Source of the DNA: Prochlorococcus sp. AG-388-A04 | GTDB taxonomy: Bacteria > Cyanobacteriota > Cyanobacteriia > PCC-6307 > Cyanobiaceae | Reading direction: 5' to 3' | NCBI GenBank assembly: GCA_003279935.1 | Contig: QCGL01000003.1 | Location: 1-64,000 of the forward strand | Length of the DNA stretch: 64,000 nt | In this document: positions 38,395 to 43,188 of the stretch, one piece after another | Numbering within the stretch: the stretch's first letter is position 1 | How the letters are laid out: every line of letters begins with the position of its first letter | Position numbers and translations under genes: made by a program | Notes under the pieces: model-generated | Seen by the model: only the letters and a program-made list of their open reading frames with translations | What the model was told of the DNA's origin: nothing | The model's database searches: none

Positions 38395-38486
38395 AACCGC
38401 TACCAAAACGTTCAACTTGCGTTTAGCAAGCCGCAAATCGACTTAAGCCATGGAACGGGGACTTAAGCGACACCGGAGCTTAAAAA
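38395..38486 (+). promoter_or_regulatory. Putative glutamine riboswitch, downstream-peptide type
   Basis: CGTTCA opens the element and GGAACG closes it, the P1 pairing of the glnA/downstream-peptide RNAs. CTTGC-gttta-GCAAG follows directly inside, and two CTTAAG blocks can pair as the expected pseudoknot. A GTAGC-aacc-GCTAC hairpin precedes it. Most telling, it leads a short ORF of the DUF4278 type that is known to follow downstream-peptide RNAs in marine picocyanobacteria. The core differs from the consensus as I remember it, so the call is moderate. It would tie the peptide to nitrogen status. Confidence 0.6.
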
Positions 38487-39753: not shown

Positions 39754-39837
39754 GTAAATTTAAGTCTACTCATCAGAATATGTAATCAGTTTTCCTTGAG
39801 TAATTTCAATGAAAATCAATAATTTTCTAGACGTTAT

Positions 39838-39900
39838 TTAGTAAGGCATTAGTAACTTAAAGTGACATAATATTCTAAGAACTAACTCCTTACTAACTTT
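39838..39900 (+). terminator. Long stem followed by T-tract
   Basis: TTAGTAAGG and CCTTACTAA are perfect 9-bp arms separated by 41 bases and followed by CTTTTT. The wide loop is unusual for a simple terminator, so this may be the end of a structured RNA. Confidence 0.4.
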
Positions 39901-39916
39901 TTAAACAGTCGATATG
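39901..39916. repeat. Dispersed island repeat, copy E
   Basis: TTAAACAGTCGATATG shares AACAGTCGAT with the copies at 9861 and 12105, about 27 kb away, again upstream of a small accessory gene. Confidence 0.4.
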
Positions 39917-39987
39917 CAATTGTTCTCAAGAAAAAAATTATTAAATACTTTTCTCAGAAATTAAACTAATATGATTTAATAGCATTT

Positions 39988-40152
39988 ATGGATTTAATAG
40001 CCATGTCAGAGCAGAAACCTTTATTTAAAGCCCCTTATGATATTAAAGATGTAAGTGCTCTTTTCGCTATAGTTGCCTTTGTTTTAATTATTGCTGCCAT
40101 AGTTGGTAATAATTTATTTGGGATATTTCAACAAAATGTTAATTTTGGCTAA
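39988..40152 (+). CDS. 54-residue single-pass membrane protein
   Basis: MDLIAMSEQKPLFKAPYDIKD is a polar start, followed by one membrane helix (VSALFAIVAFVLIIAAIVG) and a short tail. A second Met (MSEQ) is an alternative start. No family is recognised. Confidence 0.5.
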   Translation: MDLIAMSEQKPLFKAPYDIKDVSALFAIVAFVLIIAAIVGNNLFGIFQQNVNFG

Positions 40153-40385
40153 TTCATTTTGATAATAATAAGTAATCCAATATCTTCTTCATTGAAAAAA
40201 CAAGAACCTATTCTTTAGTTCCTTCATAAAGATAAATATCGAGTATTACTCTCTATTTTCCTTTTTTGTTAATTGTATAGATTTATTAATAGAACTTAGT
40301 CATACCAACAGATCTAGTATTTTTACTCATTGATCCCAATAAATTCCTCTAATAATATGAACAGAATTTATAAAAGGTTTATTTT

Positions 40386-40490
40386 ATGAGTATTCAAACA
40401 AGTCAAAATGATAAGAGACAGTCAAAAAGTAATTCAGAATGGCTAGATGAAATGATTAGTATCATAGATAGAATGAAAAATAAACTATAG
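40386..40490 (+). CDS. 34-residue soluble peptide
   Basis: The frame MSIQTSQNDKRQSKSNSEWLDEMISIIDRMK... has a helical C-terminal half. Tiny, polar, clean start and stop; no family. Confidence 0.35.
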   Translation: MSIQTSQNDKRQSKSNSEWLDEMISIIDRMKNKL

Positions 40491-40502
40491 GTCGCAATTA
40501 TA

Positions 40503-40649
40503 ATGGGATTCCCACATTGCCCTATTTGTGTGGCTCTAGCATTTTTCACCTTTTGTGTAGTGGTCACTCGAAGCTACATGTTCTTTTTTCTTTATAACGA
40601 GTCATTAAAAAGCAGATCTTATCTTTTACCTATTTGGATACAAACTTAA
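40503..40649 (+). CDS. 48-residue Cys-containing membrane microprotein
   Basis: MGFPHCPICVALAFFTFCVVVTRSYMFFF starts with a CxxC pair (HCPIC) inside or beside a membrane helix. It lies 12 bases after the preceding 34-residue frame, so the two may be co-transcribed. Confidence 0.35.
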   Translation: MGFPHCPICVALAFFTFCVVVTRSYMFFFLYNESLKSRSYLLPIWIQT

Positions 40650-40787
40650 ATTGTTTCTCAATCCGTGCTTAATCATAATTGGTTGATTAAGATTTTCTGT
40701 TCATTTTGAGCTATAAAAAAGCTAATAGATTATCTCAAAACGTTTAAATACAAAAATATAACTAATAAAGAATTATGAAATAAAACT

Positions 40788-41537
40788 TTAATCCTTGATA
40801 GCTATCTGCCAGTAAGGATAATTTAAACTTGATTTTTCTCTAATTAATTGTAATTTTCTAGAATTTATTTTTACAACTATTCCGTCAGTTGGATAGTCAG
40901 TAAATAATTTTTTATCTAACCATTGTTTCCTAAAGACTTGGACTTGGCTTGTGTAATTACAGCTTTTAATGTCTGGGGTGTTGAAGCCAAGTCTTTTAAG
41001 AGATTGAACGGTTTCGTATTGATTAAGCTTTCCATTAATAATTTGGAAACCGCAAAAGCTGATACCTTCTGGAGACCCTCCTGCAGCTCGGATGAAGCCT
41101 GATGCAATTCTTTGGGAAAAGTTGGGAGATCTATTTGGAGTGAAAAGTTCGCCTCTAATTTGCATAATTCCTGAAACAGGAAGTTTGAAGGGTATGTCTT
41201 GAATTTCAGCAATTTTGTTTGTGACATCTATACCTTTTCTAGTAATGGACTTTTCTAAGTTGCCATCTCTGTATTGCAAAGCAATAGCAATGCCATCAAT
41301 CTTAGGTTCTATTAACAATCGAGTGTCCGGTAGCAATCCTTCTAAAAATTCATCAATAGAATTCTTTTTTAATGAAGGTAATGGGAGAGATTTTTTATTA
41401 GTGAAGTAATCACAATCAGGATCTATTCTTAAAAGATTTTTTTCTAACTGATCAAATTGTTTATCTGTAATTAAAGCATTGCCTATTCTGTAATTGTGGT
41501 CGTACCATTCGAGTCTCTCTTCTAGATATGTTGTCAT
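40788..41537 (-). CDS. DNA ligase-like adenylation domain protein (NAD type)
   Basis: A 249-residue protein covering only the N-terminal part of NAD-dependent DNA ligase. A short domain-Ia-like start (YDHNYRIGNALITDKQFDQLEKNLL) is followed by the nucleotidyltransferase core: EPKIDGIA is motif I with the adenylated Lys (KxDG), MQIRGELFTP motif III, DGIVVKIN motif IV, and YWQIAIKD motif V at the very end. OB-fold, zinc finger, helix-hairpin-helix and BRCT domains are absent; full LigA has about 670 residues. It could adenylate itself but needs a partner to seal DNA. Confidence 0.8.
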   Translation of the reverse strand: MTTYLEERLEWYDHNYRIGNALITDKQFDQLEKNLLRIDPDCDYFTNKKSLPLPSLKKNSIDEFLEGLLPDTRLLIEPKIDGIAIALQYRDGNLEKSITRKGIDVTNKIAEIQDIPFKLPVSGIMQIRGELFTPNRSPNFSQRIASGFIRAAGGSPEGISFCGFQIINGKLNQYETVQSLKRLGFNTPDIKSCNYTSQVQVFRKQWLDKKLFTDYPTDGIVVKINSRKLQLIREKSSLNYPYWQIAIKD

Positions 41538-41702: not shown

Positions 41703-41792
<90 letters not shown>

Positions 41793-42897: not shown

Positions 42898-43188
42898 TCA
42901 TAAAAGATGTCTACACATATACCAAAAATGTTCTATGTCGATAGTGGTCGTTTTGAACTTATCTGTTAATATTTTTCTTGATGATGACCTTTGCATTACG
43001 ACTTTTATTGATGGATGCTTCATAGAATATACAGGTTTAAAGCCTGCTTTTTTTGCTTCGCTATGAAGATCTCTCTTTTGATAGGAATCCATTCCACAGA
43101 ATAATATAGAGGGTTTATTATTTAATCCTTCTTCTGATTTCAACATTCTATATTTTAAAACTTTTGCAATCTTTTCTAATTCCCACAT
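42898..43188 (-). CDS. Hypothetical protein, faintly BRCT-like
   Basis: A 96-residue basic protein. PSILFCGMDSYQKRDLHSEAKKAGFKPVYSMKHPSIKVVMQ, a downstream Lys and a late Trp (DIEHFWYMC) follow the order of BRCT landmarks (F-G, helix, G, variable loop, W). This is a weak pattern match. The N-terminal 25 residues form a helix. It lies about 1.4 kb from the ligase fragment, which itself lacks BRCT. Confidence 0.5.
   Translation of the reverse strand: MWELEKIAKVLKYRMLKSEEGLNNKPSILFCGMDSYQKRDLHSEAKKAGFKPVYSMKHPSIKVVMQRSSSRKILTDKFKTTTIDIEHFWYMCRHLL

Follow-up and report, generated by a model that had tools for sequence, protein, structure and literature searches.

A stand-alone NAD+-ligase-type adenylation protein of Prochlorococcus and its coupling to site-specific recombinases in other genomes

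We analysed a 64,000-nucleotide stretch of the Prochlorococcus sp. AG-388-A04 assembly (contig QCGL01000003.1, positions 1 to 64,000; hereafter the window), which contains, at positions 40,788–41,537 of the minus strand, a gene for a stand-alone NAD-ligase-type adenylation protein of 249 amino acids. The protein corresponds to the Ia and nucleotidyltransferase (NTase) domains of the NAD+-dependent DNA ligase LigA. In nine other genomes a site-specific recombinase gene lies directly upstream of the NTase gene, and its stop and the NTase start overlap by exactly 4 nt. Judging from sequence comparison, we see an even chance that the window protein is a NAD+-type adenylyltransferase accessory of integrative elements, of which this chromosomal copy has been kept under purifying selection.

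The open reading frame starts with ATG, and the plus frame across the same interval is riddled with stops. Its product matches the Pfam profile DNA_ligase_aden (PF01653) with an E-value of 3.8e-21 and 76 bits (cut-off 27), and its relatives of solved structure are, almost without exception, NAD-ligase adenylation domains. Adenylation domains of NAD ligases (LigA) are also the top PDB matches of its AlphaFold model (pLDDT 85.5). The sequence-only reading had described a DNA ligase reduced to its adenylation domain, and we arrive at the same description. Motif I (KIDG, aa 79–82, positions 41,292–41,303, with K79 as the nucleophile), motif III (RGE, aa 128–130, 41,148–41,156), motif IV (DGIVVK, aa 218–223, 40,869–40,886) and motif V (WQIAIK, aa 243–248, 40,794–40,811) are all present on the minus strand, and the frame stops one residue past motif V. 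No OB fold (PF03120) follows motif V, and a Pfam search of the 249 residues returned no zinc finger, HhH or BRCT domain. What had been missed is the N-terminus (YDHNYR..ITDKQFDQL; aa 1–66, 41,340–41,537, minus strand). Alignment with cyanobacterial LigA identifies it as a recognisable Ia (NMN-binding) domain, with Y16, D25, F28 and D29 in the window protein, so the protein unit is Ia plus NTase. The same alignment shows that the NTase loops are shorter than in cyanobacterial LigA.

Two Ia residues are substituted. A column tally shows that the NMN site is altered, with Arg in place of LigA His23 (Arg17 in the window protein) and Phe in place of Tyr35 (E. coli numbering). Because the NMN site is changed in this way, the use of NAD+ is uncertain. 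Arg equivalents of LigA R200 and R208 are retained in HL-A and in most mobile copies, which leans towards DNA as the acceptor.

We aligned the window protein with 42 relatives from picocyanobacteria and uncultured phages (28–93% identity). All of them end 0–11 residues past the motif V position and all keep the catalytic Lys, which rules out a recent truncation. K79, D81, G82, G129, E130, G219 and V221 are invariant in the 43 sequences, and K223 is present in 41 of them. The sequence-only reading had named a loss of key contacts in the structure, or variation of the KxDG Lys among homologues, as what would refute it; neither was found. The protein is a genuine NAD-type NTase that stands alone, and its motif I Lys is conserved.

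Nearly every sampled high-light (HL) Prochlorococcus genome has a stand-alone relative of about 250 aa, and such relatives were also found in uncultured phages and among LLI Prochlorococcus. An alignment-based scan of uncultured viral contigs gave 44 matches, 38 of them stand-alone; a scan of viral contigs with the single sequence gave no match. Collections of cultured phages and of plasmids contained distant matches only (<60% identity). Outside the picocyanobacterial family no stand-alone NTase was found: in a scan of 194 genomes from the class, the listed matches (only those with E ≤ 1e-25) that lie outside this family are all in full ligases. Pairwise dN/dS between the window gene and its HLII orthologues is 0.07–0.11, with synonymous sites near saturation, and within HLI it is 0.23–0.39, which indicates that the window gene is under purifying selection. 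C-terminal fragments of further NTase copies were observed at G000:C5:46946-47035 and G014:C1:817667-817762 and point to repeated acquisition and decay.

A search for conserved co-occurrence, which the sequence-only reading had proposed, found the strongest association of the NTase in other strains, outside the view of that reading, and its partners there are site-specific recombinases and tRNA-Ser. The 4-nt overlap involves one group of tyrosine recombinases, 29–60% identical, in G033/L055, G025/L057, AG-424-M03/L195 and G140/L245, and a second group in AH-716-K03/L196, AG-355-K03/L136 and AH-321-J17/L202, the last with only a 74-aa C-terminal piece of the recombinase. Large serine recombinases, 47% identical, take the same position in G020/L054 and G136/L249. 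Several of these integrase-NTase elements carry an HK97-type protease-capsid gene, an AAA_25 or VapE-like primase-helicase gene and HTH_17 as cargo. In G136 the element, about 8.3 kb long, is inserted in gloA. It contains an intact gloA copy of its own, and the final 62 bp of the interrupted gene lie beyond the far end of the element. This element, with its capsid and primase genes, serine recombinase and NTase, spans L258:11765-19001 and L249:5016-7700 (G136:C10). That the NTase shares operons with two kinds of recombinase whose chemistries are unrelated tends to favour participation in the recombination cycle, or control of it. The inspected phage copies of the NTase lie 3′ of a minor tail gene and downstream of a primase-helicase gene and mostly of a VRR-NUC nuclease gene, with no integrase beside them. 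The neighbour of the NTase in phages was considered as a recombination protein but proved to be the minor tail protein.

In the window the NTase gene lies 165 bp from a tRNA-Ser(TGA) gene (41,703–41,792, plus strand) annotated by ARAGORN and Rfam. The same tRNA-Ser is followed by a tyrosine recombinase and then by the NTase in L196, L136 and L202. The L136 copy, an HLII copy at tRNA-Ser, groups in the window's clade with a support of 100, which means that the window NTase has its clade and its tRNA site in common with an integrase-linked copy. For the window copy itself, the 4-nt overlap with an upstream recombinase is absent. Since a search of the window found neither a remnant of an integrase (about 38.2–41.9 kb) nor a direct repeat of the tRNA, the mobile origin of this copy rests on the comparison with other strains, from which it looks like an integrase-module copy kept after integrase loss. 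The cargo behind tRNA-Ser, integrase and NTase in L136 (5776-10669) reads, by eye, as a type I restriction-modification system. Downstream of the window NTase, about 1 kb (39,754–40,787) contains no open reading frame of at least 60 aa, which is unusual for a streamlined genome. A Glutamine-II riboswitch lies at 38,406–38,467, and Rfam identified further cyanobacterial RNAs (Yfr11, Yfr13, 6S and Cyano-1) elsewhere in the window.

We propose that the NTase, with Ia but without OB, zinc finger, HhH and BRCT domains, would be part of the integration module that small integrative or satellite elements carry in picocyanobacteria, where it would be encoded in an overlapping operon with a site-specific recombinase. 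In the window, the integrase and cargo would be gone and the NTase left beside tRNA-Ser as a chromosomal gene. K79 would take AMP from NAD+; the retained Ia domain makes NAD+ the probable source of the Lys-AMP. The AMP might then be transferred to the 5′ phosphate of a nucleic acid where excision, integration, gap repair or replication of the element has produced a nick or an end, which a complete ligase, for example Pmar-Lig, would close. However, tyrosine and serine recombinases need no ligase and sealing by LigA requires its OB domain, both of which count against this proposal. In a more general and more tentative form, which we regard as somewhat doubtful, a recombinase of either chemistry and a NAD+-dependent adenylating protein would form a module acting to control or complete the integration or excision of mobile elements, through AMP-marked DNA ends or nicks or through a modified recombinase. 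If this were true, the mobility of such elements would be tied to cellular NAD+.

It is unlikely, though a case can be made, that the protein is instead a domesticated DNA-repair accessory, whose chromosomal copies would adenylate DNA ends or nicks for an ATP ligase with no integrase involved. The near universality of the NTase in HL Prochlorococcus, where most chromosomal copies have no linked integrase, would fit such a role, as would the purifying selection. In two HNLC-type Prochlorococcus genomes the NTase also stands between a SRAP repair gene and a BRCT-like gene in an apparent operon (L200:4269-6043 and L203:3235-5008), and a second NTase paralogue has a fixed position next to a photolyase-type gene (L059:4698-5447, and also L061, L067 and L068). 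In HLII, however, this paralogue lacks the Lys of motif V, the Asp of motif IV and the equivalent of R208 while its gene is still open, and it is probably not an active enzyme there. Nor does a repair role explain why 4-nt overlaps with unrelated recombinases recur.

A regulatory function appears improbable. The NTase would then AMPylate the recombinase or another protein, or place NAD+-responsive control on excision, and its substrate would not be DNA. Such a function would account for operon coupling to a recombinase whatever its chemistry, and it agrees with the missing OB and DNA-clamping domains and with the altered NMN pocket. It is at odds with the retention, in HL-A and most mobile copies, of the Arg residues equivalent to the DNA/AMP contacts of LigA. 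To our knowledge, no protein-AMPylating LigA-type enzyme has been described, which also counts against it.

The sequence-only reading had also raised the need for a partner in trans. If that partner were LigA-like, the NTase would be one part of a split NAD ligase comparable to that of the T5-like phages, which divide their ligase into two genes and for which a heterodimer structure exists (9hu3). This possibility is now largely refuted and very improbable: we found the stand-alone NTase but no obligate OB or BRCT partner. Subunit A of the T5-like enzyme retains the OB domain, whereas the LigA OB domain was detected in none of ten HL genomes (and in 3/3 controls), and BRCT matches in the same ten genomes were absent or below cut-off. 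The partner that had been suggested is a protein of 96 aa encoded in the window at 42,898–43,188 on the minus strand. Its model (pLDDT 88) has BRCT topology, and BRCT domains lead its fold matches, though with weak E-values (0.05 for the best one); it has no match in Pfam, to BRCT profiles or to others. Its homologue follows the NTase gene with a 4-nt overlap in the two SRAP operons (L200 and L203), but the gene is present in only 26/100 genus genomes, and missing from 74%, against nearly all for the NTase. The BRCT-like protein is a facultative neighbour that may assist the NTase in certain strains but is not the partner it requires.

Nearly all bacteria are considered to depend on LigA, and HL Prochlorococcus are among the most abundant phototrophs on Earth. 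A search with PF01653 for a full ligA elsewhere, as the sequence-only reading had advised, found no full-length LigA in the window's own genome or in any of 67 other HL genomes (two samples of 36 each, 5 shared), many of them 99–100% complete. By comparison, matches of LigA strength were found in 84/84 sampled genomes of sister genera in the family and in the sampled genomes of other cyanobacterial families, with frames of about 680–760 aa in nearly all. An ATP ligase of 444–452 aa, of the Pmar-Lig type, is present in 18/18 sampled HL genomes and in the window's genome, and was found in none of 132 genomes of other genera. The copy in the window's genome is an orthologue of Pmar-Lig (6rau; E 2.7e-243); a Pmar-Lig gene of HL Prochlorococcus was located at G000:C2:60835-61395 (L262:4368-5699). 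Because HL genomes carry this ATP ligase instead, LigA seems to have been displaced, which is the simplest reading of their ligase content, and we infer that Pmar-Lig is probably their actual replicative ligase. The window NTase is not a split half of LigA. Nor can it credibly be a decaying remnant of a LigA lost in this lineage: HL Prochlorococcus do lack LigA, but LLI genomes carry LigA and stand-alone copies together, the stand-alone proteins group in the phylogeny with phage genes and apart from cyanobacterial LigA, and their length is fixed and dN/dS well below 1.

These results bear on earlier descriptions of ligases in Prochlorococcus. An ATP ligase in place of LigA in HL genomes is at odds with the remark that Pmar-Lig is additional to a replicative NAD enzyme (PMC6698739), and PMC2663038 cites a MED4 ligA. 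Stand-alone NTases have been counted as DNA ligases although, by architecture, none is a complete ligase: both NATL2A genes listed as "DNA ligase" in PMC6102989 (NATL2A_955315_954713 and 959226_959912) are stand-alone NTase copies.

Among known systems, LigA shares with the NTase PF01653, motifs I, III, IV and V, the Ia domain and the fold. It differs in having the OB, zinc finger, HhH and BRCT domains, longer loops, and the His23 and Tyr35 that the NTase has exchanged for Arg and Phe. Pmar-Lig (6rau; PMC6698739) occurs in the same genomes as the NTase but is an ATP ligase that is complete and has both a DNA-binding and an OB domain. The E. coli LigB family is likewise a reduced NAD ligase, and the NTase has a weak NCBIfam match to it (59.6 bits against a cut-off of 498), but the LigB model has 562 positions and extends past the NTase. 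The T5-like heterodimeric phage NAD ligase (PR1 structure 9hu3) also keeps its adenylation domain apart from the HhH/BRCT half and also occurs in phages. Unlike the NTase, its subunit A has an OB domain and its subunit B is encoded close by; no gene for subunit B (ZBD/HhH/BRCT) was found near the NTase, either in the window or in any of the listed neighbourhoods, and the BRCT search gave the same result. Tycheposons and marine phage satellites resemble the NTase elements in their tRNA-linked integrase, variable cargo, and capsid or primase genes (for tycheposons, PMC10872708), but the available descriptions do not mention an integrase-coupled ligase-type NTase. A literature search, whose range lay outside the primary tycheposon and VEIME papers, likewise found no description of an integrase-coupled ligase adenylation domain. 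The coupling of NTase and recombinase may point to an as yet unexplained adenylating accessory of DNA integrases.
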